Source of the DNA: Hysterangium stoloniferum
Lineage: Eukaryota; Basidiomycota; Agaricomycetes; Hysterangiales; Hysterangiaceae
Reading direction: 5' to 3'
NCBI GenBank assembly: GCA_015178975.1
Contig: WHVD01000167.1
Location: forward strand, 62,001-126,000
Length of the DNA stretch: 64,000 nt
The notes beneath the pieces were generated by a model that did no database searches, was not told where the DNA came from, and was given only the letters and a program-made list of their open reading frames with translations. Position numbers and translations under genes: made by a program. Of the stretch, positions 23,625-61,010 are shown in pieces (the stretch's first letter is position 1; every line of letters starts with the position of its first letter).

Positions 23625-25358
23625 ATGGGTCCAAAACCAACACCTTGCAGACCAATGCCCACTGCTAGGCCCTCCATGGGCTCCTTGTATCAAGCTCCAC
23701 TCACTGCTGCCCAAATCTTGGCACAGTGGGACAAGCAGTGTCGATAAAGGGAGGAAGCAGAGAAAAAGGCCAAAGAGGCTGAGGAGGACTTGGAGAGGGA
23801 TTATCAGGCGGCACTGGTTGTGGAGAAGGAGACCAAGGAGCAGAAGAAAAGAGATGAGGAGGAGGTGGCATGGATTGCCATGGAACGTGTCAAGGCAGCT
23901 GTGGAGAGGGCTGTAGTTGCCACAGGAAAGGTAAGTCCCAGTGATTTGCATAGTTGGTTTTACTGATTCTGCTCTCAGCACAAAGTAGTAGAGGCTGAGT
24001 CAGAGTCTGAGGGGGAGCTGGAGAGCCCCCAAAAGGTAAGTCTCAGGTCCATGGGGTTTTCCAGGGACTGACCATGTCAACAGAAGGCAAGGAAAATGGC
24101 TCCAGTCCATTTGGAGGTGAGAAATGACCCACAGTGTTCCGGTTGCAATGATTGACTGGAACACAGACTGTTATCAAAAGTCTGGGTGGGGACTGGGCTG
24201 TTGGCCTTGTGCACACCTGTTAGGGTACGTACATGGTGGGTCTCCAGAGAAACCCACGGAATATCCAGTAGGACTTGGCTTCAGCTTATAGGCTGCACCC
24301 TCGCTAGATCGTGTTGTCCAATTTCAGACAGGCAGATGGGAATCCCGGGGAGTCCAGGCAGGGGTCGTGGGTCGAGGGGGTGTAGGTCAGAGATTGTGGG
24401 TCGTGAGTCGAGATTGATGAGAGAGATAAATGTGCCAGAGCCCATGGGCTCTGACTAGCGTGAGCGGTGTAATTCAAGTAGGAGTTTAGAGCGGAAAATG
24501 TATTAGATTACTGGGGGGAATCTAAGCCAATTTTCTGACTGGATTGTATGCACAACATCTGCCAGTTTAAATAGACTGTGGAGTGAATGTCATACCAAAT
24601 CCAGTAATGATGAAATGGAATGAGCAAAACATAAAAGGGGAATAGTAAACACCAAGTTTGGTGTTAGGAACGGGACAGAACAGAGCGGAGTCCGAATAGT
24701 GACAAATCATAAACCATAATGGGAAATGGAGCGGAAGTGGAGTCCAAATTGTGACAGGTCATTTGACTAAAACGGGAATGGGGCTCTGTTAGAGGGATGA
24801 TGGGTATTCCGAGTGGGGTCCGGTGACTGATGCGTGGGACAAGGTCGGACATAGACAGAACGGAGTCCGGTGGGTTTTCCAGTGACTGAAACACAATGTA
24901 ACGAAGTCGAACGTAGACAAGTCTGATGTATGGAGTCCGGCGGGAATTCTGGTAAACTGATAATGGGTGCATATAAGTTAGTGCCTGGAGTCCGGTGGGA
25001 TTTCTGGTCATAACAACACCTCAAAGCAAGGTGCTCACTGGTTCATGAGCCTGCAGGGTCCATGGCATGGGAAGTGGGTGGTTTAGACTGGCCTGTGGGC
25101 TTGGAGGAGGTCTTGGGGGGCAGATAGCTGTGAGGCCCAAAACCAGTTGCTTGAAGAGGGCAACTAGATGCAGGGGACCATGGTGGAAATGCTCCAGGAA
25201 CTCTGTGGGGAGTTCTGGGCATTTTTGGTGGAGTATGGCAGGAATGTATATGTTGAACCACAGGATGGGAGTTCTGAGGAGCCTGGTGAGGATGAGGATG
25301 GAGTCCCTGGGGAGCTGGTAGAAGTTGGGCAAAAGAATAGCCCTATAAATGTAGATTG
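23625..25358 (+). pseudogene. Antisense accessory gene of chromovirus Y1, degenerate
   Basis: Third and most decayed copy of the coiled-coil/zinc-cluster gene seen at 59346 and 28247. Promoter parts are kept: TCACATGA at 23531 and TATATAAAA at about 23570, 50-55 bp before the ATG. Exon 1 (23625-23930) encodes the Glu/Lys-rich helix but has an in-frame TAA. Introns 23931-23978 and 24036-24083 sit at the same places as in the other copies. The zinc-cluster exon retains one CSGC-like half before stops. It is split by a solo LTR (24218-25015) and resumes at 25021-25358 with an acidic C-terminus ending GQKNSPINVD, like Y2. It lies antisense to Y1 pol. Confidence 0.7.
24218..25015 (-). repeat. Solo LTR, family Y, in the Y1 antisense gene
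   Basis: 798 bp from TGTTAGGGTACG to ATAACA. It is flanked by exact 5-bp duplications ACACC (24213-24217 and 25016-25020). Removing it rejoins the interrupted zinc-cluster exon by comparison with 59961-60020. Confidence 0.9.
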
Positions 25359-25929
25359 AAAAGGAAAAATAATAAAGTTTAATAATTAATTTTTTTTTAA
25401 ATAAAAATAAAAATGTGAAACATAAAAGTCTGTGGGAAGGTCTGCTAAGACTTGAAGACATGTCTGAAAACCTGTAAAGCAAAGAGAGACATAGGGTGAC
25501 AAGGAAAAATGAAGTGAATCCAATGTATACAGTAGGCAACAAAACCGTTCAGATGTTTCTTTGTTTTGAAAAGATCCTTTAGCATTAGCCCAAATTAAAT
25601 TCTAAAAATTCTGAATAGATTCTGATAGATGCTCTAATATCACTAAATGTTGATTACATAACCATGATGTCATATGTCCATTTATGGTGATGTAATAATA
25701 GGATTAATGAAGCTTGTATATCTGAACGGTTTTGTTGCCAAGACTCACAAAGCAAAGAAGTGGTCTAAATATATTCATGATCACATGACTTTACTTCCAC
25801 AACCTAAAACCTAAACCTTAACCCCAAAAGTCAGATGATTTGTTCATATTCAAGTATAAATACAAGGCCTTTTAGCATGCTTGTCCCCACAATTCACTAT
25901 GCACAATTCTCCCTGCTATTCATGAATAC

Positions 25930-27348
25930 ATCATTACTCTGCCCCTCTCTAATGTCTTTGGGCACTCTATTCATCAGACCACTGGTGTTAGTATTGGAAC
26001 TATCTCAAAAATGCACTCTAAATACTGTCCTGAGGCTTTCAAGTCCTCTGGTGGTCATCCAACTAAGCTTACATATGCTGATATCAGCTATGCTAAGCAT
26101 CTCATTTGCAGGCAGAAATCTGATAATGCAGTGCAAGTTACCAAGTCTCTTCAGGATGTCACAAATACATCCCTCTCCTCCCAAACTGTTTGTCATGTCT
26201 TACACAAGGCTGGCCTAAAACCTGTGGTGAAGAAGAAGTGCCCTCTTCTGAGATGATCTCACAGGAGGGAGAGGCTACAGTGGGCAAAGAGACATCAGAA
26301 GTACACTCTGGAGGACTGGAAGAGAGTTGTATTCTCTTATGAGACCAAAATCAATCATCTTGGGTCAGATGGAAGGAAGTGGGTGTAGAAAAGGTGGTGG
26401 GAGGGTGTGAGGAGTATGCTTTTACCACAGTATCATTGTGGTAAAACACTCCTTTTATTTCATTTATATTTTACATATTTTATTCATATTTTTCTATCTT
26501 TCATATTCTTCGAATCTTGCATATTTCATTAGTTCGAAGCATTGTGTATACTTGTGGGTGCACTCAGCACCAATTAGAACTCAGACACACTTTAACCCAG
26601 GAACCACCACTCGTAAGACACAAACTAGGTCTACTACGAGCGGTGATCAGGGTAACGTGTCAGCTACTACATAAGTAGCAGTATCTGAACTACTGAACAC
26701 TTCTGGCCTCGAACTATAACAGTCGAGGCCTCCACTCGAACCATTGCACTCGTTGACTCCTTTGTCATCTCGTGCTCTTTCTCTCACCTTCTCTTATATT
26801 GCACCGAATAGGTCAATATTCTTCCTTTCTACTCATTTCTTCGTATATAGAATGGTCTGAACTTCTACCACTCTTCACAGAGGGGTTGACTGACAGGCAG
26901 GTGGAGGGAACATTGAAGTTTGGTGGTGGTAGTGTGATGATGTGGGGCTGTATACTTTGGGAAGGCATTGGATATGCCACTAGAATTGAAGGGAAGATAG
27001 ATTCACAGCTTTACTGCTCCATCTTGGAGGATGAACTTCAGCAATCCCTTGAGTTTTACAAAAAAACTCCATCTGATATCATCTTCTAGCAGGATAATGA
27101 TTCAAAGCATACTAGCAAACTAGCTCAAAAGTGGTTTGATGACCATGGATACACTGTTATGAAATAGCCAGCACAGTCTCCAGATCTAAACCCTTGAAAA
27201 GGAGGCTAGCTGACTATGAAACACCACCTAGTGAAGTGGAGGAGCCTGTCAAGTGGAATGGGAAAAGATACCAAAGGAGGTGAGTCAGAACTTGATAGAG
27301 AGTATGCCTAGAAGAGTAGAAGTTGTAATTAAGGCCAAGGGAGGGTAT
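25930..27348 (+). pseudogene. Tc1-type transposase remnant
   Basis: Recognisable blocks: GHPTKLTYADI, HRRERLQWAKRHQKYTLEDW, LKFGGGSVMMWGC, NDSKHTSKLAQKWF and QSPDLNP, the order expected for a Tc1 DDE transposase. It is dead: several in-frame stops, the first catalytic Asp reads Tyr in FSYETK, and the segment after LNP that should carry the last acidic residue is deleted. A solo LTR splits it at 26406-26879. The final codons, after an X1 insertion of 16.5 kb, continue at 43811-43822 (T-K-Y-stop). Confidence 0.88.
26406..26879 (+). repeat. Solo LTR, family Z, in the Tc1 transposase
   Basis: 474 bp from TGTGAGGAGTATGC to CTCTTCACA, flanked by exact 5-bp duplications GAGGG (26401-26405, 26880-26884). 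Nearly the same sequence as the LTR at 32192-32665 in the opposite orientation. Confidence 0.92.
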
Positions 27349-28072
27349 TGTTAAGAACTGAAAACTGACTAATGTCAGTGGCCGACAGGGACCGATCGGA
27401 AGGACTTGGCTTCAGCTTATGTGCTGCACCCTCGCAAATATCCGTAGGGTGTCCTTAGATTTCTGGCGGGCGAAGACTTAATCCTAAAGAGCTCTTTTCG
27501 GCGAGATACTGATCGGAACCGAAGGACAAGTCGAGCGTCAGGCCAAGTGGTCGGGGCCAAGAGTGGGTGAGCGCACGCGGAGGCGGATGGGGGGATTCTT
27601 AGTATGAGACTATTACAGGTGTATGAGGGTATTCTGAGTCGATATTCTGATTGCCTAGTAACTACAACTACAGCGGGTTCATATACAAGTAACAGGCGTC
27701 TAGAAAATACTAATGGGGAGAAGGGCAGAAAATGGTATTAACAATAAGCTTGACTAGGAACGGGAAGTTTATGATTAGTTCGGAGGCCGATGATAACCGA
27801 GAGTGGGATTACGATAAAAGGAAATAGTTCAAGGACTACAAATATAGATAGACATATGTGAAACATAAGGTTGAACGGATCAACATAATAAAGGGGATGT
27901 ATCAAAAGTTTGACCAGACAATACAAGTTATTTTGACGTGGGCGTAAACGGAGTTTGATCTTCGTGAAAACATTCGTCAGCTTTGGGGCCGATGGTTTCC
28001 GAGATGGTGACTTGAAACATTGATAAGTGGCGATAACCTCGGGACTGATAGGGTTGCGACACGGTCGTAACA
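27349..28072 (-). repeat. 3' LTR of X1
   Basis: 724 bp, TGTTAAGAACTG to GTAACA on the plus strand. Contains the core GGACTTGGCTTCAGCTTATG at about 27403. Matches the 5' LTR at 43082-43805 in length. Confidence 0.93.
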
Positions 28073-28088
28073 GTATCTCCCCTTTTGG
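28073..28088 (-). promoter_or_regulatory. Polypurine tract of X1
   Basis: On the minus strand this reads AAAAGGGGAGATAC directly before the 3' LTR, the position where the plus-strand primer of reverse transcription forms. Its place next to 28072 fixes the element orientation. Confidence 0.75.
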
Positions 28089-28164
28089 CCAAAATCCCAA
28101 GGAGGCCGAAAATCTAGATCCTGTACGTAAAAACTTGTCGGGTACGGCTGGGTGTGTCAAAACA

Positions 28165-28196
28165 TCATGTGACTCAGCAAAATTTTACATATAAAA
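28165..28196 (+). promoter_or_regulatory. Promoter elements of the X1 antisense gene
   Basis: TCATGTGA (28165-28172, E-box-like) and CATATAAAA (28188-28196), about 50 bp before the ATG at 28247. The same pair precedes the copies at 23625 and 59346. Confidence 0.55.
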
Positions 28197-28246
28197 ATTC
28201 GAGGGGTCCTGGCGCTTGAAATTTTACTTCTCTTCCCTCAACCACC

Positions 28247-29231
28247 ATGACCATAGGCTCGGGGTCAAAACCCTTCCCGGTTAGGTTAACAGTTGTGCCT
28301 ATATCGGTGCCGAGTGGTACGGCGAACGTGAAGGAGTGTCGGCGTATACTTGAGCAGAAGAAAAAGGCGCGTGAAGAGGAGGAGCGGAAGGAGAAGGAGG
28401 AGTTGGCGGCCATCGAGGCCGAGGAGAAGAAACAGGCGGCAGAAGAGGCCACGCGCAAGCACTGGGAAGCAGTGCTTGCAAAGAACAAGCAGCAGGAGGC
28501 CGATCGGGCGCGGGAGGAGGCGGCGAAAAAGAAGCAGGAGGGAAAGGTAAGTCGGCTCTGGTATCTTTTGCGAACCTTACTGACAATATTTGTTAGCGCA
28601 AGGCTGTGACGCCTTCGGAGTCCGATGACGAAGAGGGAGAGGAGGACGAGGAGGGTGCACCAGGGCCGTCGAGCCCCAAGGTGGGTTCGGTTTCCCTAAG
28701 TAAAAACTTTTCTAAATAATTTTCCTATAGAAACAAAAGCAGGCCCCCAAGGCGGGGCCCGAAAATGACCCTAAGTGCAATCGGTGCATGAAACGGGGTC
28801 GAACCTGTCATCCCCAGGCCAATGGTCGGGGCCGCACTTGTCAAGAGTGCGCTGATCAGAAGCATGGGTGTGTTTTCCTGGGGGCCGATGGTTCATTCCA
28901 GGAGCGACAGGCCGATGCTCTAGAAGAGCAGAACCGCCTTATGCAGACCTACTTCTCGGAGACGACTCGGTTCTGATTCGAGATGTTGCGACAACAAGGG
29001 CTCATAACCGAGCAATTGCGACTCTTGGGCGTCGGGCTGGAGAAACAGACCAGTGTTATCGAGTCTCTCGGTGGTCAACTTGAGCAGTATTTGGAAGTCT
29101 CGAGTTGCGATGGAATTGGGCATGAGATTGGGGTGTCGGAAAAGGTCGGTGGTGCGGTATCGGTGGCTGTCGGTGCGGAGGAGGGTTTGGAGGCTGGGGA
29201 GGAGGGAGAAGTTGTAGAGGGAGAAACTTAG
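28247..29231 (+). pseudogene. Antisense coiled-coil/Zn2Cys6 accessory gene of X1 (one nonsense codon)
   Basis: Lies between the end of X1 pol and the polypurine tract, on the other strand. Exons 28247-28546, 28597-28680 and 28731-29231, with GT-AG introns of 50 nt, all in phase 0. Exon 1 is a Glu/Lys/Ala-rich coiled coil of 100 residues; exon 2 is acidic and Ser-rich; exon 3 has six cysteines at 28776, 28785, 28806, 28839, 28848 and 28869 spaced C-x2-C-x6-C-x10-C-x2-C-x6-C, the GAL4-type zinc cluster pattern, then Leu/Gln-rich helices and an acidic tail ending at 29231. A TGA at 28974-28976 interrupts the frame. A DNA-binding regulator is the natural guess; function is unproven. Confidence 0.72.
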
Positions 29232-29327
29232 ATAGTAAAAATATATCGGTTTTTCTTTAAAACAAACAAATCATAGCGTGAAAACATAAGGCATAGTCGG
29301 AAAAAGGTCAGATACCACGTGATAGAC

Positions 29328-31286
29328 TTATAAAGAATTGAGAGGACCGGGTTTGTTTGGATAAGCTTGGTGAAACCCTAGAACGATTTCCGAGGCATTA
29401 CCGAGCTCTGTAGCTAGGATCCATGAAGTTTCTTCATCTGTACCTTCATAGCCAGCCCATTTGACCAAATAAAGTAATTTGCATGAGCGTCGGCGATTGT
29501 CGATTTTTGAGTCTAGAATCTCTGATATCTCGAATTCGGGTTCCCCATCAATAATCACGGGTGGAGGTGGTGGTTGTATGCGATCCGGTATACTGTTAGG
29601 AACACAAGGTTCTAACATAGATACATGAAATACCGGGTGCACTGCACGCATGTTGTCGGGGAGCCGAAGCGTCCATGAAAGCGTGCCGGCTTGTGCTATA
29701 ACTTCAAACGGACCTAAATATTTTTCAGAGAGCTTCTTAGAAGGTCTAGTAGTTCGGAAAAACTCGGCTTTAATGAATACTCGATCTCCAATCTTGAAAT
29801 CAGGAGGCGGAAGTCGGTTTTTATCCGCAGACCGTTGGTATCGTTCTTGGGCCATTGCGATAGTTTTACGAAGTTCTTGATGTAGCTCGTCAAGGTTGGT
29901 AATGAAGTCTTGAGCACGGGTGGATGTGAGATCACGTTCCGGGTGGATTGCGATGTTGGGGTTGTAGCCTTTATTTGCAAAGAAAGGCGAAATGCCAGTA
30001 GTGGCATTTGGTGCATTGTTATATGCGAATTCGGCTAGCGGTAGTAGTGATTTCCAATTGTCTTGTTGATAGTTGCAATAGACACGGATGTATTGTTCCA
30101 AGGTTTGATTCATGCGTTCGGTTTGTCCATCGCCTTCCGGGTGATAGCCTGAAGTGAAATGTAGCTTCATGTCTAGTGCTTTTCCGAGTGACCTAAAGAA
30201 GTGAGAAACAAATTCGGATCCATGATTGGATGTGACATGCGATGGAACACCATGCTTGGAGAATACGTGGGTGATGAATTCAGCTAACTGTACAGATGTT
30301 ATCGTGTCATATGTTGGAATGAAAATACTTTGCTTTGAGAGCCGATCCACAACAACTAGGATTGCTGTGTGACCTTCGGATGCCGGTAGGTGCTCGATAA
30401 AATCCATAGAAATCGAGTTCCAAGGTTTTTCCGGTATCGGTAATTGTTTGAGTAGGCCATATGGTTTGTGTTGCTATGATTTAGAGTGTAAACACGTAGT
30501 ACAGGATTTACAATAGTGCTTAACAAAATCTCAGATGCCGGGCCATGTATATTCTCTTCTAATGAGTGAGAGGGTCTTATTGAGGCCGAAATGTCCCGAG
30601 ATTGGGTGGTCGTGCTTATGTTGTAGGATTCGCAGCTGAAGGGTATCGGAATCCAGTACATAAATGCGATTGTCAAGTCTAATGAAACCTTGTGAGTCTA
30701 ATGACCATCGGGGTTGATCGGGGTCGGACGGGTTATTGAGGTGTGCTTTGGTGACTGGGTCTAATGGAATTGCCGATAGTATATCTTGATGTAACTTTTC
30801 GGTATCCATAAGGATAACACTTCGCAAGACTGGATGAATGAGGTAAGTGGCTCGGATAGACGTGGACAGTTGTTCCGATGAAAACATAGGCTTGAAATTA
30901 TGCGGGTTAACTGTGGCGTAGTCGCTACTCCCCTCTTAGGATAGACGTCCCATCGTCTAGTCATAGCGTCGGATTTTCCACCAAGGCGGCCGGGGCGGAA
31001 ACGAATTACCATGCAGAGAGGTATTCGGACCATCGAGCTTGTCGACGGGTGAGAAGTTTTGTGGTTGAAAAGTAAACTAAATTTTTGTGGTCTGTAATAA
31101 CATCTACCGGGTGGGCCGAGCCTTCCAAATAATGTCGCCATGTCTTGAAAGCTTCAAATATTGCGAGTAGTTCCTTATTGTGAATGTCATAGTTGAGTTC
31201 GGGCGCCAAAAATGTGCGAGACAGAAAAGCTACTGGGTGTACTTCACCATCGGTGTCCAGAATGGACAATATCACGGCAAGTGAAT
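29328..31286 (-). pseudogene. X1 pol, 3' segment: RNase H end, integrase, chromodomain
   Basis: Continues X1 pol after a solo LTR. RNase H blocks [20 protein letters not shown] and VITDHKNL; a frameshift follows near 31010. Integrase shows the HHCC zinc domain (HKHDHPISGHFG...CKSCTTC), SMDFIEHLP (first Asp) and HPEGDGQTERMNQTLEQY. The second catalytic Asp reads Asn (TSNHGSEF). The chromodomain follows: EFEISEILDSKI...LYLVKWAGYEGTDEETSW; stop at 29328-29330. Additional stops near 30540 and 30475 break the reading frame. The open 3' part (30407-29328) covers integrase core and chromodomain. Confidence 0.9.
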
Positions 31287-31928
31287 TGTGAAGAGTTGAT
31301 AGATTCTGACCGTTCAATATACGAAGTATAGCGTTTATTCAACTACTACTAGCAGGTATTGACCGTTCAGTACAATACCGTAGATTACTAGACTGGCCGT
31401 ACTAGTAAGGAGACACGCAATGTGTCACAAGAGCAACTGTACAGTTGCTCTTGATGGCTAGAATGAAGAATGAAAGAGTTGACCTTCACGGTACAACTCG
31501 TAGCTAGACGTAAGATAGATAATCAACGAGAGGCTGAATATCTAAAGTAAAGGGATAATAGTGTGAGTCGACTATAATGTCGACGAGCGCAAAGACCTTA
31601 GAGTGGAACTCGACCTTCGCGGTTCGAGTCCAAAGTCTGTGAGTATGCGAGAGAACACTACCTTTATAGGTAGTTGAGACGTTACCCTTGACACCTCTCG
31701 CTATTCGACGTCTGGGTCGTTTACGAGGTGGTGTCTGTTGGGTAAAAAGTGTCTATCGTTTGGCGCCGAGAGCACCCATATGTATACACAAAGCTTTGAA
31801 CTACAAAATAAGGGTATGCTCGAAATATAGAAAGAATGTAAATGAAGAAAATAAAAAGTAAATAATAAAATACTTTAATCCAACTATTATTCCTTAGTCC
31901 AATTATGCATATATGCATACCCTTCACA
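31287..31928 (-). repeat. Solo LTR inside X1 RNase H
   Basis: 642 bp from TGTGAAGAGTTG to CCCTTCACA, the same LTR type as 60152-60796. The flanks TGAAT (31282-31286) and CGCAT (31929-31933) look like a TGCAT duplication with one change in each copy; uninterrupted Y2 reads AGTGCATAGTC at this place. Confidence 0.8.
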
Positions 31929-32191: not shown

Positions 32192-32665
32192 TGTGAAGAG
32201 TGGCGGAAGTTCTGACCGTTCTATATACGAAGAAATGAGTAGAAAGGAAGGATATTGACCTATTCGGTGCAATATAAGAGAAAGTGAGAGAAAGAGCACA
32301 AGATGATGAAGGAGTCAACGAGTGCGATGGTTCGAGTGGAGGCCTCGACTATTACAGTTCGAGGCCAGAAGTGTTTAGTAGTTCAGATATTGCTACTTAT
32401 GTAGTAGCTGACACGTTACCCTGATCACCGCTCGTAGTAGACCTAGTTTGTGTCTTACGAGTGGTGGTTCTTGGGTTAAAGTGTGTCTGAGTTCTAATTG
32501 GTGCTGAGTGCACCCACAAGTATACACAATGCTTCGAACTAATGAAATATGCGATATTCGAAGAATGTGAAAGATAGTAAAATATAGATAGAATATGTAA
32601 AATATAAATGAAATCAAAGGAGTGTTTTACCACAATGAAACTGTGGTAAAAGCATACTCCTCACA
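32192..32665 (-). repeat. 3' LTR of Z1
   Basis: 474 bp; on the minus strand TGTGAGGAGTATGC...CTTCACA. The adjacent plus-strand GTGCCCCCCAG (32666-32676) reads CTGGGGGGCAC on the minus strand, a polypurine tract as in Z2. Confidence 0.88.
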
Positions 32666-33888: not shown

Positions 33889-36800
33889 CACTGGAGGCAC
33901 CCCAAGATTTTTGGAGTTGCAAAACCTTCAAAAAATCTTGCTATTTGGCCAAATTTGCTAAGCATTCTTTGAACTGAAAAACTGTTTGAAAATCTTGAGT
34001 TTTAGTAGGTTTTTCTGAGGACAGAAATTGTATCTGAAAACCCTAAAGATGTTGATCAGGAAATTCTAAGGAAACATTGTTGGAAATAGCCTATTTTCTG
34101 TGGATTTTCTAAATGGGGAAATTCTTAAAAAACCCTGGGTTTTGTTAGGTTTTTCCACCCAACAGAATTCTATGAAAATTGTAATAATTTGCCTAGAGAA
34201 ATCAATTGAAAACAACATATTTCTGCTCAATTTTTCTGCTCAGGGAATTGGGTGAAAACTATAATTTTTTACCAGGAAAATCTTGTGCCAAGACAATGTT
34301 TTGTTAATGTTTTGTCAAGGGGAAAACCCATAATGAAATTGACAATTTAATTATATGGGAAATCATTGAATAATGATAGATTTCAATAAGATTTTCCTTG
34401 GCCACAAACACTATGGAAATTCAAAAAATGTGTTGGTGAAATCTTGAAGAAATTAACAATTTCACATGAGTTTCTTAAAGGTTTTTCAAGATGAGAAACC
34501 GTGAACTGATTTTTCCTGATTGAGCATGATTCACAATTGTTTGGAATAGTACAGTGGGATTTACAAATATTTAAGAGGATTGTTTTAGATTCAGGTAGAT
34601 TCTTTTAGATTCAGATAGATTCTTTGAGATTCAGATAGATTCTTTGAGATTCAGATAGATTCTTTTAGATTCAGATAGATTCTTTTAGATTCAGATAGAT
34701 TCTTTTAGATTCAGATAGATTCTTTTAGATTCAGATAGATTCTTTTAGATTCAGATAGATTCTTTTAGATTCAGATAGATTCTTTTAGATTCAGATAGAT
34801 TCTTTTAGATTCAGATAGATTCTTTTAGATTCAGATAGATTCTTTTAGATTCACATAGATTCTTTTAGATTCACATAGATTCTTTTAGATTCTTTTAGAT
34901 TCAGATAGATTCTTTTAGATTCACATCGATTCACATCGATTCACATCGATTCACATCGATTCACATAGATTCACATAGATTCAGATAGATTCAGATAGAT
35001 TCACATAGATTCAGAGAGATTCAGATAGATTCTTTTGGATTCAGATAGATTCTTTTAGATTCACATAGATTCAGATAGATTATTTTAGATTCAGGTAGAT
35101 TCTCTTAGATTCAGATAAATTCTTTGAGATTCAGATAGATTCTTTTAGATTCAGGTAGATTCTTTTAGATTCACATAGATTCAGATAGATTGTTTGAGAT
35201 TCAGATAGATTCTTTTAGATTCTTTTAGATTCACCCTAAACCATAAAAGAATCTATGTGAATCTAAAAGAGTCTATGTGAATCTAAGAGAATCTATGTAT
35301 CTGAATCTATGTGAATCTATGTGAATCTATGTGAATCTATGTGAATCTCAAACAATCTATCTGAATCTATGTGAATCTAAAAGGATCTTTGTGAATCTAT
35401 CTGAATCTAAAAGAATCTATCTGAATCTAAAAGAATCTACCTGAATCTAAAAGAATCTATGTGAATCTAAAAGAATCTATCTGAATCTAAAATAATCTAT
35501 CTGAATGTAAAAGAATCTATCTGAATCTACAAGAATCTACCTGAATCTAAAATAATCTATCTGCATCTATGTGAATCTAAAAGAATCTATCTGAATCTAT
35601 GTGAATCTACAAGAATCTATCTGAATCTATCTGAATCTAAAAGAATCTATGTGAATCTAAAAGAATCTATCTGAATCTATGTGAATCTAAAAGAGTCTAT
35701 CTGAATCTATCTGAATCTATCTGAATCTATCTGAATCTATCTGAATCTAAAAGAATCTATCTGAATCTATCTGAATCTAAAAGAATCTATGTGAATCTAA
35801 AAGAATCTATCTGAATCTATGTGAATCTAAAAGAGTCTATCTGAATCTATCTGAATCTATCTGAATCTATCTGAATCTATCTGAATCTATCTGAATCTAT
35901 CTGAATCTAAAAGAATCTATCTGAATCTATCTGAATCTATCTGAATCTAAAAGAATCTATCTGAATCTATCTGAATCTAAAAGAATCTATCTGAATCTAT
36001 CTGAATCTATCTGAATCTAAAAGAATCTATCTGAATCTATCTGAATCTAAAAGAATCTATCTGAATCTAAAAGAATCTATCTGAATCTAAAAGCATCTAT
36101 CTGAATCTAAAAGAATCTATCTGAATCTAAAAGCATCTATCTGAATCTAAAAGAATCTATCTGAATCTAAAAGAATCTATCTGAATCTCAAAGAATCTAT
36201 CTGAATCTAAAAGAATCTACCTGAATCTAAAACAATCCTCTTAAATATTTGTAAATCCCACTGTACTATTCCAAACAATTGTGAATCATGCTCAATCAGG
36301 AAAAATCAGTTCATGGTTTCTCATCTTGAAAAACCTTTAAGAAACTCATGTGAAATTGTTAATTTCTTCAAGATTTCACCAACACATTTTTTGAATTTCC
36401 ATAGTGTTTGTGGCCAAGGAAAATCTTATTGAAATCTATCATTATTCAATGATTTCCCATATAATTAAATTGTCAATTTCATTATGGGTTTTCCCCTTGA
36501 TGAAACATTAACAAAACATTGTCTTGGCACAAGATTTTCCTGGTAAAAAATTATAGTTTTCACCCAATTCCCTGAGCAGAAAAATTGAGTAGAAATATGT
36601 GGTTTTCAATTGATTTCTCTAGGCAAATTATTACAGTTTTCATAGAATTCTGTTGGGTGGCAAAACCCTAACAAAACCCAGGGTTTTTTAAGAATTTTCC
36701 TATTTAGAAAATCCACAGAAAATAGGCTATTTCCAACAATGTTTCCTTAGAAATTCCTGATCAACATTTTTAGGGTTTTCAGATACAATTTTTGTCCTCA

Positions 36801-39770: not shown

Positions 39771-40281
39771 TGTGAAGAGTGGCGGAAGTTCTGACCGTTC
39801 TATATACGAAGAAATGAGTAGAAAGGAAGGATATTGACCTATTCGGTGCAATATAAGAGAAAGTGAGAGAAAGAGCACGAGATGACGAAGGAGTCAACGA
39901 GTACGATGGTTCGAGTGGAGGCCTCGACTATTACAGTTCGAGGCCAGAAGTGTTTAGTAGTTCAGATATTGCTACTTATGTAGTAGCTGACACGTAACCC
40001 AAGAACCACCACTCGTAAGACACAAACTAGGTCTACTACGAGCGGTGATCAGGGTAACATGTCAGCTACTACATAAGTAGCAATATCTGAACTACTAAAC
40101 ACTCCTGGCCTCGAACTGTAATAGTCGAGGCCTCCACTCGAACCATCGTACTCGTTGACTCCTTCGTCATCTCGTGCTCTTTCTCTCACTTTCTCTTATA
40201 TTGCACCGAATAGGTCAATATCCTTCCTTTCTACTCATTTCTTCGTATATAGAATGGTCAGAACTTCTGCCACTCTTCACA
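39771..40281. repeat. Hairpin (palindromic) 5' LTR of Z1
   Basis: Two 230-bp inverted arms (39771-40000 and 40052-40281) around a 51-bp spacer. The left arm is the inner half of the LTR in normal orientation. After CACG the sequence switches to the complementary strand at a TAACCC match, copies back through the spacer and repeats the whole arm inverted. The outer U3 half, including the TGTGAGG terminus, is absent. Confidence 0.88.
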
Positions 40282-40286
40282 ATCTT

Positions 40287-40884
40287 GAATGACTTGAATT
40301 TTAGAGTCGTCCATGTGGAGACCGTCAGGTCCCATCATAAACCCTAAATATTCAACTGTGTCAACATCAAAAGAACATTTTTTACCATTCGCAAAAAGAC
40401 CATGTTTTCGGACTCTTCGGAGAACTTCACGAACGTGTTCGTCATGAAGTGTAGGGTCTTTGGAGAATATGAGGATGTCATCTAAGTACACAATGACAAA
40501 AATGTCGAGGAGGTCAGAAAAAATGTCGTTGATAAAACGTTGAAAGACCGATGGAGCATTGGTGAGGCCGAAAGGCATTACTAACCATTCAAAGGAGCCA
40601 TAGTGAGTGCGAAAAGCCGTTTTCCATTCGTCGCCTTCGGTGATCTGAACCAAATGATAGGCATGTTTGAGATCTATCTTTGTATAGATTTGGGCCTTCC
40701 GAGGGGCATCAAGTAAATCAGAGATTAGTGGTAATGGGTACTTGTCTTCTCGAGTGATCACATTTAGTCCTCGAAAGTCAACGTAAAGTCGAAGGGAACC
40801 GTCTTTTTTCCAAACGAATAGGACAGGGGCTCCATAAGGAGACTTTGAGGGTCGGATAAAACCTATAGCCAAATGTTCGTCCAA
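40287..40884 (-). pseudogene. X1 reverse transcriptase, 5' segment
   Basis: RT blocks [42 protein letters not shown] (first catalytic Asp), [18 protein letters not shown] and YLDDILIFS (catalytic YxDD). It is interrupted at 40282-40286 by Z1 and continues at 32186. A TGA at 40888-40890, in frame with the upstream protease ORF, stands where related elements have Arg (CGA). Confidence 0.93.
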
Positions 40885-40890
40885 GAAATC

Positions 40891-41840
40891 TCAGATAGCC
40901 GATAATTCAGACTGCGAGAGAGGATAAACCGGGCCTAGGGGCAGATGTGAACCATCTTCAATATCAATTTTCAAATCGTAAGGCCTGTGAGGGGCGAGTC
41001 GATCTGCTTTTTGTTTACTGAAGACATCTGCAAATTCATGGTATTTTTTGGGAACACCTTCCAAATCTGCGATCAGTTCGGCCACCGGGGATGCAAAGCA
41101 ACCGGTGACTTCGTCAACTTTAAGATTGACTGTAAATGCTCGGGAGCCATCCAACTTGATGGCTCTCATAAAAGCTGCAGCGTTTATTAGAGAGACGGGT
41201 GGCGGAGAGCTCGGATTTGCCACTGGGGCCGGAGGTGCTGTAGAGGCCATATTTGCTGAAACAGGGGGAAATGTACCAGTCGTATCGGGTGCCGACGGGG
41301 TTTGGAAATGGATACTGCCCAATACCCAATCAATCAACAGATTGTAGCGGGTGAGCCAGTTATGTCCTAGAACCACGGAGCAACTCGGGTCCAACTGTGT
41401 TACAAAAAACATAACTGTCTGAAAGGTTCCACATGGGAACCGAAGTCGGAGTTCACAGGCTTGCGAGATTACGGAGTTTGAGGTACCATCAAAGAGTCGG
41501 AGCGGAATCGGATCTATTGCATAGGTTTTTAACTGATTTTTTTGGGAAAAACTTGTATCTATAAAACAATGGGTTGAACCTGAATCTATGAGGGCTCGAA
41601 AAGTGAGATTCCCGAGAAGTTCCGAAGTAAGGTTTATGAACAAAGAATTAGGATCATACAAGGCGGATGTGTTAAGGTGACAATTTTCCGGTGTGCGAGG
41701 AGATTCAACGCAACTCTCCAAATGCACGGAATCCAGAGAGTTGCTTAATCTTTTTTTGACTCGGCAGCCGGCTTGGCCAGTTGTGAGGTCGTGGCTGTAT
41801 TGGCCGATCGGGCTTTTGTGGCTTTTGGGCATGCAGCGAC
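40891..41840 (-). pseudogene. X1 protease and protease-RT linker
   Basis: Reads on from gag after the TGA at 41841-41843. It contains FRALIDSGSTHCFID (retropepsin Asp-Ser-Gly active site), VVLGHNWLTRYN and, near its end, the EFADVFSKQKADRLAPHRPYD and GPVYPLSQSELSAI blocks that precede RT in chromoviruses. It is closed by the nonsense codon at 40888-40890. Confidence 0.88.
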
Positions 41841-43043
41841 TCAGTGTCCGGGATCTGCGCACAACAAACAAAGGTTGTTGTCCATTCGGCGTTGCTTTTC
41901 CTGTGGTAGGAGCTTGCCATCGGAGCCGAGTTTGCCGGTTAAGTCGGGTTTGTCTTTGTCTTGAGACTTATTCGACTGTTTTCCCTTGCCTTTTTTGTCA
42001 TTAGCCCCTTTGTTTTCGGACTTCTTATCGGAGGTCAAATTGCCACTGTTGTTGGTGTTTTGATTACCAGACTTGTTGGCGTTCTTATTGTCCGACAATT
42101 TCTTGTCCAAAGGGTTTTTGCAACTAATTTCCGAACATCGTTCCCAGTATCGGGCATCTGCGTTTTGGGCTTTCAGACGCATGAGAGGGAGGGTCTTCGG
42201 CTTGCCGGTCTCTCCTTTGGAAACTTCATCTTTGAGGCGAGACAGAAGGCCGGAGTAAAACTGGTAACGGAGGGCCGAATCGCCCCAGTCGCAACGTGCG
42301 GCAAGGTTGTTGAACTGGACGATGTAATCGGTGATGTGCTGAGTGTCTTTCATTTTGAGATTAGAAAGTGCGGTTTCGGCATCGCCAGTTTGATTGTAGG
42401 GACCGAAGTTGGTTTTGAGTTCCTCGACAAAGGCATCCCAATCGTGAAGCCAATTGGGGTCTTCGGAGGTGAGGCCAGAGAATGCGGGTTCAAACCAGGC
42501 TGCTGCGGAATCCTTAAGGTATGAGAGTGTGAAGTTTACCTTTCGGTCATCCGTTGCGAATGCAGCCGGGCAGTCCCGAAAGTTGAATTGACATTGCATA
42601 AGAAATGTCGGCAATTTCTTCAGGTTTGAGCCAGTGAATGGCTCGGGTTTGTTGACTCGGGTTTGCCCAGGTTCCTTTTCCTTGATATTGCTTTTAAGGA
42701 ATTCATTAAGGGATCCTAGAGTACCTGAAAACAATTCCCATGTCTCTTCAGGGTCGAGAGCCAGTTTCTTTTTTGCGGACTTCTTGGAGCCACTAGCCTG
42801 AGGTTGGTCGCCATCCTCGGGTTCGTGTTCCGAAACTGGTTGATTGTTAATCTCCTCAGTTGCTTTGGGATCGGTTGCTTCAGTTACTTCTTCAGCATCG
42901 CCGGTAATCTCCACAAAGCGAGATTCTTTGGAGGTTTCTGGTAGCGGGGTTCTCTGAGTAGCTCGGGCTGTATACAGGAAAGGAGACTTGAGAGTAGAAG
43001 ATTCTGCTTCACCGCTTGGTTTGGCATTTCTTCTCGGAGGCAT
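41841..43043 (-). pseudogene. X1 gag with nonsense codon in the zinc knuckle
   Basis: ATG at 43041-43043, 38 bp from the 5' LTR. About 400 codons with an acidic N-terminus, a retrotransposon gag fold (FLMQCQFNFRDCP, AAWFEPAF, WDAFVEELKTNFG, YIVQFNNLAARCDWG) and a Lys/Asn-rich region. The nucleocapsid knuckle C-x2-C-x4-H-x4-C is cut by TGA (41841-41843) directly after its His; reading through would supply the last Cys. In gag-pol single-ORF elements this stop would abolish pol synthesis. Confidence 0.9.
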
Positions 43044-43068
43044 AATTAAACGGAAAATGTGAGTGTGA

Positions 43069-43079
43069 AATCAGAATAT
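43069..43079 (-). promoter_or_regulatory. Putative self-priming site (PBS) of X1
   Basis: The minus strand reads ATATTCTGATT two bases after the 5' LTR. It is not a TGG-type tRNA site. It is exactly complementary over 11 nt to the LTR bases at 43375-43385, which lie 33 nt after a TATA-like box. Tf1-type elements are known to prime reverse transcription from such an 11-nt foldback of their own RNA 5' end. Confidence 0.6.
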
Positions 43080-43081
43080 AC

Positions 43082-43805
43082 TGTTAAGAACTGAAAACTG
43101 ACTAATGTTGGTGGCCGACAGGGACCAATCGGAAGGACTTGGCTTCAGCTTATGTGCTGTGCCCTCACAAATATCCGTAGGGTGTCCTTAGATTTCGGGC
43201 AGGTGAAGACTTAATCCTAAAGAGCTCTTTTCGGCGAGATACTGATTGGAACCGAAGGACAAGTCGAGCGTCAGGCCAAGGGGTCGGGGCCGAGAGTGGG
43301 TGAGCGCACGCGGAGGCGGATGGGGGGATTCTTAGTATGAGACTATTACAGGCGTATGAGGGTATTCTGAGTCGATATTCTGATTGCCTAGTAACTACAA
43401 CTACAGTGGGTTCATATACAAGTAACAGGCGTCTAGAAAATACTAATGGGGAGAAGGGCGGAAAACAGTATTAACAATAAGCTTGACTAGGAACGGGAAG
43501 TTTATGATTAGTTCGGAGGCCGATGATAACCGAGAGTGGGATTATGATAAAAGGAAATAGTTCAAGGACTACAAATATAGATAGACATATGTGAAACATA
43601 AGGTTGAACGGATCAACATAATAAAGGGGACGTATCAAAAGTTTGACCAGACAATACGAGTTATTTTGATGTGGGTGTAAACGGAGTTTGATCTTTGCGA
43701 AAACATTCGTCAGCTTCGGGGCCGATGGTTTCCGAGATGGTGACTTGAAACATTGATAAGTGGTGACAACCTCGGGACCGATAGGGTTGCGACACGGTTG
43801 TAACA
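43082..43805 (-). repeat. 5' LTR of X1
   Basis: 724 bp. On the minus strand: TGTTACAACC start, TATATGAA at 43418-43411, inferred transcription start AATCAGAATAT at 43385-43375, the conserved GGCTTCAGCTTAT core (complement) near 43140, and the AACA end at 43082. This gives U3 about 420 bp and R-U5 about 304 bp. Confidence 0.9.
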
Positions 43806-44082
43806 GGTATACCAAGTACTAGTTTAGTATATAGGGTTTATAAAATACAGGCAACAAAACCGTTCGGATGAACAAGCTTCATTAATCCTATTATTACATC
43901 ACCATAAATGGACATATGACATCATGGTTATGTAATCAACATTTAGTGATATTAGAGCATCTATCATAATTTATTCAGAATTCTTAGAATTTAATTTGGG
44001 CTAATGCTAAAGGATCTTTTCAAAACAAAGAAACATCCGAATGGTTTTGTTGCCTACTGTACACAGGGTCCACAGAATGTGG

Positions 44083-52301: not shown

Positions 52302-53023
52302 TGTTACAACCGTGTCGCAACCCTATCGGTCCTGAGGTTATCACCACTTGTCAACGTTTCAAGTCACCATCTCGGAAACCATCGGCCCCGAAGCTGACAA
52401 ATGTTTTTGTGAAGATCAAACTCCGTTTACACCCACGTCAAAATAACTCGTATTGTCTGGTCAAACTTTGATACGTCCCCTTTATTATGTTGATCCGTTC
52501 AATCTTATGCTTCGCATATGTCTATCTATATTTGTAGTCCTTGAACTATTTCTTTTTATGGTAATCCCGCTCTCGGTTATCATCGGCCTCCGAACTAATC
52601 ATAAACTTCCCGTTCCTAGTCAAGCTTATTGCTAATACCATGTTCCGCCCTTCTCCCCATTAGTATTTTCCAGACGCCTGTTACTTGTATATGAACCCGC
52701 TGTAGTTGTAGTCACTAGGCAATTAGAATATCGACTCAGAATACCCTCATACGCCTGTATCAGTCTCATACTAAGAATCCCCCCATCCGCCTTCGCGTGC
52801 GCTCGCCCACTCCCAGCCCCAACCCCCTAGCCTGATGCTCGACTTGTCCTTCGATTCCAATCGGTATCACGCCGAAAGGTACTCATTAGGATTAGTCTTC
52901 GCCCGCCCGAAATTTAAGGACACCCTACGGATATTTGCGAGGGCGCAGCACATAAGCTGAAGCCAAGTCCTTCCGATCGGTCCCTGTCGGCCACCGACAT
53001 TAGTCAGTTTTCAGTTCTTAACA
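52302..53023 (+). repeat. Solo LTR, family X, in Z2
   Basis: 722 bp, TGTTACAACCGTG to CTTAACA, flanked by exact 5-bp duplications CTGAT (52297-52301, 53024-53028). Opposite orientation to X1. It separates the end of Z2 gag from protease and must be younger than the Z2 insertion. Confidence 0.94.
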
Positions 53024-59345: not shown

Positions 59346-61010
59346 ATGGGACCAAAGCCAACACCTAAAAGAGTGATGCCAACCGCGGGGTCCTCCACGG
59401 GCTCTCCGTATCGGGCACCTTGGAGCACAGCCCAATTGTTAGCATGGCGAGAAGAGCAGCGCCGACTTCGTGAAGAAGCAGAGAGGGAGGTGAGGGAGGC
59501 TGAGGAGGCCCTGGACCAAGAGTACCAGGCAGCATTGGCTGCGGAGGAAGAGGCCGCAAGGGAGAGGGAGTGTGAAGCAGAGGAGGCTGCGCAGGTGGCC
59601 ATGGAGAACACCCAGGTGGCTGTGGAGAAAGCCCAGGTGGCTGCGGAGAAAGCCCGGTTGGCCACGGACAGGGCCGCAATTGTTGCGGGAAAGGTAAGTC
59701 CCAATATTCACTTGTCGAAATTTGCTGACTTGTATTTTTTCAGTGCAAGGCGACAGAGGTGGAGTCGGAGTCTGAGGGGGAGCCAGAGAGCCCCCAAAAG
59801 GTAAGCCTCATGTCCGTGGGATAACCGTGGAAACTGACCGTATCAACAGAAGGCAAGGAAGGCGGTGCCAGTCCGTCTTCCGACGCAGAACGAGCCGTGG
59901 TGTTCCGGTTGTAACGACTGGAACACTGAATGCAACCAAAAGTCCGGCCGGGGTCCGGGGTGCTATCAATGTGTGCACCTCAAGGCGAGGTGCTCGCTTG
60001 TTCACGAGCAGGCCACGGGGTCCGGGGTCCAGGGCATGAGATGTAAGCGGGTCAGACGGGTTGTCCGGGTTGGACGAAGTCCTTGGACAGATCGCCGAGG
60101 GCATCGAGGCCCAAAACGAGTTGCTCCAGAAGAGCAACAAGGTCCACATAGTGTAAAGGGTATGCATATATGCATACTCGGACTAAGGAATAATAGCTGG
60201 ATTATAGTACTTTATTATTTACCTTTTATTTTCTTTCTTTATATTCTTTCTATATTTCGAGCACACCTTGATTTTGTAGTTCGAAGCTTTGTGTATACGT
60301 ATGGGCGCTCTCGGCGCCAAAAGAGACAGACAACTTTTACCCAGCAGACACCACCTCGTAAACGACCCAGACGTCGAATAGCGAGAGGTGTCAAGGGTAA
60401 CGTTTCAACTACCTCTAAAGGTAGTATTCTCTTGCATACTAACGTACTTTGGACTCGAACTGCGAAGGTCGAGTTCCAATCTAAGGTCTTTGCGCTAGTC
60501 GACATTATAGTCGACTCGCGCTATTATTTCCTTACTCTAGATATTCAGCTTCACATTGATTATCTATTTTACATCTAGCTACGAGTTGTACCGTGAAGGT
60601 CAACTCCTTCATTCTTTCATTCTAGCCATCAAGAGCAACTGTACAGTTGCTCTTGTGACACATAGCATGTCTTCTTACTAGCACAGCTTGTCTAGTAATC
60701 TACGGTATTGTACTGTACGGTCAATATCTGCTAATAGTAGTTGAATAGACACTATTCTTCATATATCGAACGGTCAGAATCTATCGACTCTTCACACATA
60801 GTGGTGGCGAAGGAACTGTGCGGACTCCGCGAGGAATTTTGGAAGTTCCTGGCGGAGTATGGCGGCTATGTATATGAGGAGCCGCAAGTCGGGAGTTCCG
60901 AGGATGCCAGATTGGATGAGGACGGGGTTGACGCAGAGGTCACGGAGCTTCCTGAGGAAGTAGCTGAGGCGGCAGGGAAAAAACACAGCCCCATAGAAAT
61001 AGATGAATAG
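59346..61010 (+). pseudogene. Antisense coiled-coil/Zn2Cys6 accessory gene of Y2 (split by a solo LTR)
   Basis: Exons 59346-59693 and 59744-59800, then 59850 onward, with phase-0 GT-AG introns at the same places as in X1. Exon 1 (116 codons) starts MGPKPTPKR, then a Glu/Arg/Ala coiled coil ending in repeated QVAVEKAQVAAEKA-like heptads. Exon 2 is acidic. Exon 3 has C-x2-C-x6-C-x9-C-x2-C-x6-C (CSGC...CYQC...), the GAL4-type pattern. After the cluster the frame changes near 60030 (a frameshift, or a further 48-nt GT-AG intron at 60044-60091). The helix EAQNELLQKSNKV is cut by the LTR at 60152 and resumes at 60797 with an acidic C-terminus ending PIEIDE at 61010. Confidence 0.72.
60152..60796 (+). 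repeat. Solo LTR in the Y2 antisense gene
   Basis: 645 bp from TGTAAAGGGTATGC to GACTCTTCACA, flanked by exact duplications CATAG (60147-60151, 60797-60801). Same LTR type as 31287-31928. Confidence 0.93.

Follow-up and report, generated by a model that had tools for sequence, protein, structure and literature searches.

We examined a 64-kb stretch of DNA from the truffle-like fungus Hysterangium stoloniferum (Basidiomycota, Hysterangiales), referred to below as the window, in which a minus-strand Ty3-type chromovirus, X1, one of a very abundant kind of element, carries a spliced gene on the opposite strand. The gene encodes a protein with a six-cysteine cluster, recurs across the genome in four families of related elements (X, Y, Z and W) and is under purifying selection. 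The elements themselves are dense in short CGG-containing words that differ among families, and the protein might be a regulator that recognises the DNA of its own family by these words.

The element and its antisense gene

The 3' long terminal repeat (LTR) of X1 was read from the sequence at about 27349-28072 (minus strand), with TG..CA ends, and is adjoined by a polypurine tract at 28073-28091 (minus strand). The integrase end of pol, in an open reading frame (ORF) at 29328-30473 (minus strand), has Pfam matches to rve, to the SH3-like domain SH3_Tf2-1 and to the chromodomain Chromo, the last at 25.3 bits against a cut-off of 25.1. Nested insertions separate this part from the reverse transcriptase, protease and gag part at 40258-43070 (minus strand; Pfam RVT_1, RVP_2 and Retrotrans_gag), and the 5' LTR lies at 43082-43805 (minus strand), the comparison of the LTRs extending over about 43079-43806. 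The two LTRs are 95.9% identical across 728 bp and enclose gag, protease, reverse transcriptase, integrase and chromodomain in Ty3 order, as in Ty3/Gypsy chromoviruses; RNase H and H2C2 were found by Pfam in Y2, one of the family Y elements of the window.

A preliminary description of this DNA had placed a plus-strand gene between the minus-strand pol end and the polypurine tract, and the sequence bears this out: a three-exon gene lies in that interval in X1. Exon 1 (28247-28546, plus strand) begins with the ATG at 28247 and has 100 codons, which by eye give a proline-rich start and a charged, coiled-coil-like stretch. Exon 2 (28597-28680) adds 28 codons of acidic character, and exon 3 (28731-29231) encodes in turn a short basic stretch, the six-cysteine cluster (28776-28871; C-x2-C-x6-C-x10-C-x2-C-x6-C), a second coiled-coil-like stretch and an acidic tail. 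Both introns are in phase 0 and 50 nt long; the first (28547-28596) reads GTAAGT..TAG with a branch-point-like CTGAC and the second (28681-28730) GTGGGT..TAG. Upstream, a TATA-like box lies outside the LTR at 28190-28196 (plus strand). Of 40 X copies, 38 have the pattern TATA[AT]A 57-59 bp upstream of the ATG; it stands 57-62 bp upstream in 16 of the 17 Y copies assessed (20 were fetched) and 56 bp upstream in all three W copies tested. The single Z copy tested lacks this pattern, but has TATAAG at -57. A box held at -56 to -62 is suggestive of a promoter belonging to the antisense gene itself.

It had also been stated that X1 and Y2 keep a full cluster, and the six-cysteine spacing is indeed complete in both (CX2CX6CX9CX2CX6C in Y2), but all three gene copies of the window proved to be broken. 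The X1 gene is interrupted by one TGA in exon 3 (28974-28976). In Y2 (59346-61010, plus strand; exons at 59346-59693, 59744-59800 and 59850-about 60157) exon 3 leaves the family frame past the cluster, and an insertion at about 60157-60799 divides it in two. The decayed Y1 copy (23625-25358, plus strand) has a stop in exon 1 and another inside the cluster, and its exon 3 holds an LTR-like block of about 800 bp (about 24217-25018).

Copies of the gene and retention of its introns

Copies elsewhere in the genome were sought by a DNA search, in which the best 40 of 296 candidates were scored (X1 and 39 others, 91-96% identical), and by protein searches with exon 3, which gave 436 X-type, 896 Y-type and 819 W-type candidates, sets that may overlap; here the best 150 were scored. 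Among these best-scored candidates the antisense gene is repeated genome-wide. Ten of the 40 X copies, spliced at the sites of X1, yield an intact protein of 286-294 residues, and of the 32 in-frame stops in the 40 copies, 27 are TGA codons of the CpG-decay type. The spliced frame is intact in 9 of 20 Y copies, which is no estimate of a rate, as these copies were chosen mainly for an open exon 3. At least 94 of the best 150 matches to the X1 pol end have an exon-3 match within 2 kb on the opposite strand, and no pair lies on the same strand; of the remaining 56, which have no listed exon-3 match, eight were fetched, and a diverged gene is present in every one of these. The gene is therefore coding, conserved, on the opposite strand and present in most copies of a family, as is expected of an antisense additional ORF (aORF). 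Across the four families the pol ends are 76-96% identical and the introns stand at the same two places, so that the gene is not a host gene captured on a single occasion.

About twenty Y-type copies (e.g. C16, C25, C33, C103 and C199) share one exon-3 score, and several of them lie within 5 kb of contig ends; they may stem from a recent burst at whose copies the assembly broke.

Intron conservation was tallied by cutting introns at aligned positions in 52 X copies (the 40 above and 12 further X-type copies) and 20 Y copies. GT..AG borders are present in 52/52 X copies for intron 1 and 49/52 for intron 2, and in 20/20 and 19/20 Y copies, more often than chance would produce. A branch-point-like CTRAY occurs in intron 1 of 50 X and 17 Y copies and in intron 2 of 19 Y copies, but in intron 2 of merely 8 X copies. 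Lengths vary and are mostly not multiples of three (X: 49/52 for intron 1 and 36/52 for intron 2; Y: 13/20 and 15/20), and therefore the frame is generally open only once the transcript is spliced. In all 72 X and Y copies intron 1 is at least 25 nt long, and in one of them intron 2 measures 17 nt. This near-universal retention, which upholds the earlier proposal that the introns survive copying, is as expected if they are not introns in the genomic RNA.

Purifying selection and divergence between families

The ratio of nonsynonymous to synonymous divergence (dN/dS), summed over pairs, is 0.215 in X (14 intact copies, 91 pairs, two of them at 1 or above; L005 and L072, with a shifted end, were left out) and 0.228 in Y (9 intact copies, 36 pairs, none at 1 or above; L060 was left out because of its end). 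For W the ratio was computed on exon 3 alone and lies at 0.20-0.41 in six pairs. Transversions are not caused by CpG decay. Their rate per site in X is 0.0065 at codon position 1, 0.0069 at position 2, 0.0217 at position 3 and 0.040 in introns; the values for Y, in the same order, are 0.0093, 0.0096, 0.0265 and 0.037. At codon positions 1 and 2 they are thus about 4-6 times rarer than in introns. Because dN/dS is low in X, Y and W exon 3, and because transversions follow codon position, purifying selection acts on the protein that the spliced plus strand encodes. Values far from 1 also sustain the earlier claim that this is a genuine element-borne gene. It has been discussed for plant antisense ORFs, in passages of PMC7264820, that the antisense transcript may act as RNA, for instance in double-stranded RNA for silencing. 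Such a role here, with the protein a mere relic, is very improbable, given that a dN/dS of about 0.22 and the codon-position pattern indicate selection on the protein.

The idea that the antisense protein evolves faster than pol was dropped, because silent divergence differs as well: between X and Z, dS is 1.96 for the gene and 0.32 for pol. This gap points to exchange between families by recombination. Within the W type, exon 3 of L098 shares its C-terminal part with L092 and differs in the part from cluster to linker, and the pol sequences of L098 and of the L094 element are 97% identical; compared with L091-L094, this looks like recombination inside exon 3.

The Zn2Cys6-like cluster

Zn2Cys6 (Gal4-type) domains have the cysteine spacing CX2CX6CX5-12CX2CX6-8C. 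All six cysteines stand at this spacing in 46 of 52 X copies and 20 of 20 Y copies, and also in those Z and W copies that were read. The GAL4-type identity put forward in the preliminary description fared unevenly when it was compared with known domains. Two X proteins reached no Pfam family, Zn_clus included, and among the 83 matches to PF00172 in the genome (E up to 10) one copy of the gene was recognised, at 16.9 bits, under the gathering cut-off of 21. Profiles were then compared with host Zn2Cys6 domains, for which 16 stretches were fetched and 11 domains used, the other five, in which the search pattern detected no cluster, being left out. The profile of 46 X clusters matched these with a probability of 95.4 and all six cysteines aligned, and none of 100 column permutations with the cysteines fixed reached the score, so that for X the match appears to extend beyond the cysteines. 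On this comparison the X cluster is likely a member of the Zn2Cys6 family. The assignment appears weaker for Y, where the profile of 20 clusters gave a probability of 85.7 and 11 of 100 permutations reached the score. The cluster structure predicted from two window sequences was too uncertain to be of use (pLDDT 55), and a sequence search of the PDB returned a single, irrelevant match.

With Zn_clus matches at so many places in the host, the gene might be thought a recently captured host Zn2Cys6 gene. That origin has next to no probability: the same intron sites are shared by four families at just 31-66% identity, and word-based searches of protein collections gave no match beyond the species' own records, returning four proteins, all of Hysterangium stoloniferum, although searches of this kind, one of which scored the best 8000 candidates, may overlook distant relatives. 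An ancient capture is possible.

CGG words favoured by each family

Words were examined in the window and in the fetched pieces. X-type DNA is enriched 2.2-fold in TCGG/CCGA and Y-type DNA 2.0-fold in CGGA/TCCG. In LTR and pol coding sequence alike, the word is TCGG in X and Z, CGGAA in W and, less sharply, CGGA/TCCG in Y. By counts per kb, the X1 DNA at 27349-31300 (no strand assigned) is rich in TCGG/CCGA; the blocks that fall entirely within X1 hold 18-21 per kb at 28-31 kb and 17-20 per kb at 41-44 kb, against a mean TCGG count of 8.0 per kb (range 1-13) in 22 host blocks at 1-22 kb, which contain nuoG-like and ABC-transporter genes. The Y2 element has 8-16 CGGA per kb.

Words in pol were tested by synonymous-codon permutation. 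The best word was TCGG in the pol of Z (73 observed, 44.0 expected, z 5.6) and CGGAA in that of W (37 and 16.0, z 6.4). Three pieces of X1 gave 25 TCGG against 14.6 expected, 27 against 15.5 and 16 against 10.5, the word ranking first in the second alone, and in Y2 CCACG/CGTGG ranked first, with 38 CGGA against 25.9. Host ABC-transporter ORFs (39 against 36.2), the nuoG-like ORF (15 against 16.7) and another LTR element (22 against 29.5) showed no enrichment of TCGG. In these controls the best unrelated word reached z 4.1, so the X1 pieces (z 2.1-3.8) mean little alone, whereas Z and W exceed the control.

LTR words were tested by dinucleotide shuffling, under which an unrelated word in a control repeat reached z 5.9. 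CGGAA ranks first in two copies of the W LTR (16 against 2.6 and 17 against 2.5; z 9.1 and 9.8), as does TCGG in the Z LTR (24 against 10.1). TCGG is fourth in the X1 LTR (15 against 6.5) and beyond the top six in the L014 LTR (10 against 3.9), and CGGA has z 2.6 and 2.2 in the Y LTR. Two W-type copies fetched later have CGGAA first in both pol and LTR; in L100, a degraded W-type fragment, it is not first. In the window and the fetched pieces, a high density of the family's own word is clear for X/Z and W and less sharp for Y, and W pol has some excess of TCGG as well.

The words could arise by context-dependent mutation, such as a CpG decay that spares TCGG or CGGA, and this decay is active, as the TGA stops of the X copies attest. 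We nevertheless regard mutation as a quite improbable source, because the absolute number of TCGG exceeds that of the host (17-21 against 8.0 per kb) at similar or lower CpG, and because the favoured word differs among families within one genome.

A block at 52-53 kb, lying among other repeats, contains 15 TCGG and three TCGG pairs 10 bp apart. It was rejected as a counter-example, since 52502-53023 is 88% identical to the upstream part of family Z.

Spacing of the words

Spacing was compared with position-jittered sets; these counts are descriptive, as the distances were first read off the same data and families X and Z are closely related. Pairs of TCGG at a distance of 10 bp number nine in X1 (jitter mean 0.8) and eight in Z (1.0), values reached by none of 2000 jitters. 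Inverted TCGG..CCGA at 6-8 bp occurs seven times in X1 (jitter mean 1.2; 1/2000) and 15 times in Z (2.0; 0/2000). Y2 has seven TCCG pairs at 10-11 bp (jitter mean 1.1; 0/2000) and five occurrences of CGGANTCCG (0.3; 0/2000). A spacing rule was also looked for in W and in 22 kb of host DNA, and no excess was found in either. When every 4-mer was scanned blind at every distance, the X, Z and Y2 words came first, at 4e-6 in X1, where CCTC followed closely (7e-6), 2e-6 in Z and 1e-5 in Y2, values close to the threshold that up to about 15,000 tests impose; the same scan of W gave nothing prominent.

Zn2Cys6 dimers are known to bind CGG triplets repeated at a fixed spacing, in direct or in inverted orientation. 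The spacing in X, Z and Y is a pattern that such dimers might read, and W lacks it. The words could instead be signals on the genomic RNA, read by Gag or another factor, since TCGG-N2-4-CCGA can form short hairpins and the words show a strand bias of about 2:1 that would suit an RNA signal. We consider this improbable: a loop of only 2 nt, short for an RNA hairpin, is left by three of the seven inverted repeats of X1 and by four of the 15 of Z, and the 10-11 bp between direct repeats suggests phasing along the DNA helix.

Proposed function

The explanation that we favour, at a probability of about 0.48, is that the antisense, intron-bearing gene encodes a self-recognising regulator or anti-silencer that reads the CGG words of its own family. 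The gene would be transcribed from the antisense strand, so that its introns would not be introns in the genomic RNA and would survive reverse transcription. The protein would dimerise via its coiled coils, and its zinc clusters would bind paired CGG half-sites accumulated in the LTR, the coding sequence and the antisense gene. By marking just its own family it could regulate that family alone, most likely through activation or anti-silencing in which it maintains open chromatin over the element or brings machinery to its own copies, in a manner comparable to the VANC proteins of Arabidopsis VANDAL transposons. The preliminary description had suggested, as a possibility, a regulator of the LTR or of target choice, an idea to which the CGG words may give concrete form. 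The more specific proposition, that a dimeric zinc-cluster protein recognises its family by element-wide CGG words, including those at synonymous sites of gag-pol, and that word and protein change jointly as families diverge, is put forward tentatively and as something short of an even chance.

Two observations slightly lower the odds of both the favoured explanation and this proposition. The words are not exclusive, TCGG being somewhat raised in W pol (55 against 37.2) and CGGA in Z (59 against 44.8), and the replication in W is not independent, because the pol of L098 and the first W pol share 97% identity. The same element-borne, spliced and selected gene could moreover have another role, for example in nuclear import, packaging or integration targeting, with the CGG words unrelated to it. 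The gene and its selection are established, and the link between protein and word is only a correlation over three classes (X/Z, W and Y). We think this rather unlikely, since Zn2Cys6 proteins read paired CGG half-sites at fixed spacing and since the words are missing from those host ORFs that were tested and from the other LTR element.

Comparison with known systems

Antisense additional ORFs of the aORF-3R type are described for plant Ty3 elements in passages of PMC7264820 and PMC11963269, among them Grande gene23, RIRE2, the Retand ORF with TRP28 and PvRetro13. As in X1, these genes lie between pol and the 3' LTR on the opposite strand; the Grande gene has its own promoter and a nuclear product, and DNA binding is predicted for that of Retand. 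The present gene differs in belonging to a basidiomycete chromovirus and in having two conserved introns and a Zn2Cys6-like cluster, and a word search of the main texts of the two papers found neither intron nor zinc. The antisense gene brtn of Boty/BcGypsy1 in Botrytis cinerea is likewise an extra gene of a fungal Ty3 element (PMC7264820, PMC8365987); it was compared by description only, and no mention of introns or of a zinc cluster was met in the portions of these sources that treat it. An antisense homing endonuclease gene of a group I intron also keeps a spliceosomal intron, of 47 nt, according to PMC9548176. Element and protein in that case are unrelated to the H. stoloniferum gene.

HBZ of the human retrovirus HTLV-1 is a bZIP protein. 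It resembles the present protein in being the antisense, spliced and nuclear regulatory product of a retroelement, as outlined in part of PMC10186651. Its promoter lies within the 3' LTR, according to a passage of PMC7264820, whereas the TATA-like box found here is outside the LTR and the protein has a zinc cluster.

The nearest working parallel is VANC of the VANDAL DNA transposons, in which, as passages of PMC5735166 relate, a fast-changing protein and a dense family-specific word evolve together. A fast-diverging element protein and a short word dense in its own family are common to both systems (PMC5735166 and PMC10398659, in part). The VANDAL words, in the same accounts, lie mainly in non-coding tandem repeats and their binding has been demonstrated; here the words fill coding sequence too, and binding and anti-silencing are proposed by analogy.

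Searches of the open-access literature found no report of an intron-bearing antisense Zn2Cys6 gene in a fungal retrotransposon, nor of element-wide words like these, and by these searches the combination of an antisense gene, introns, a Zn2Cys6-like cluster and a fungal Ty3 element, together with the words, appears to be new. The functions of the antisense genes of plant LTR retrotransposons are called unknown in a passage of the review PMC7264820. A recognisable cluster of DNA-binding type and a suggested target word for each family make function in the present case testable by simple binding assays. If the proposal is true, it shows how a retroelement can keep introns and provides a retrotransposon counterpart of the VANC system, in which an element tags and recognises itself for anti-silencing or activation.

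Other features of the window

Beside Y1, at 25900-27220, there are remains that by eye resemble a Tc1/mariner-type DNA transposon interrupted by another repeat, no search having been made. Another repeat has copies 95-98% identical near and inside X1, at 26593-26879, 32192-32421 and 39771-40281. Within the interrupted part of X1, an AT-rich array with a period of 10 bp occupies 34127-36688 and has large inverted arms of 1106 nt that are 90% complementary.
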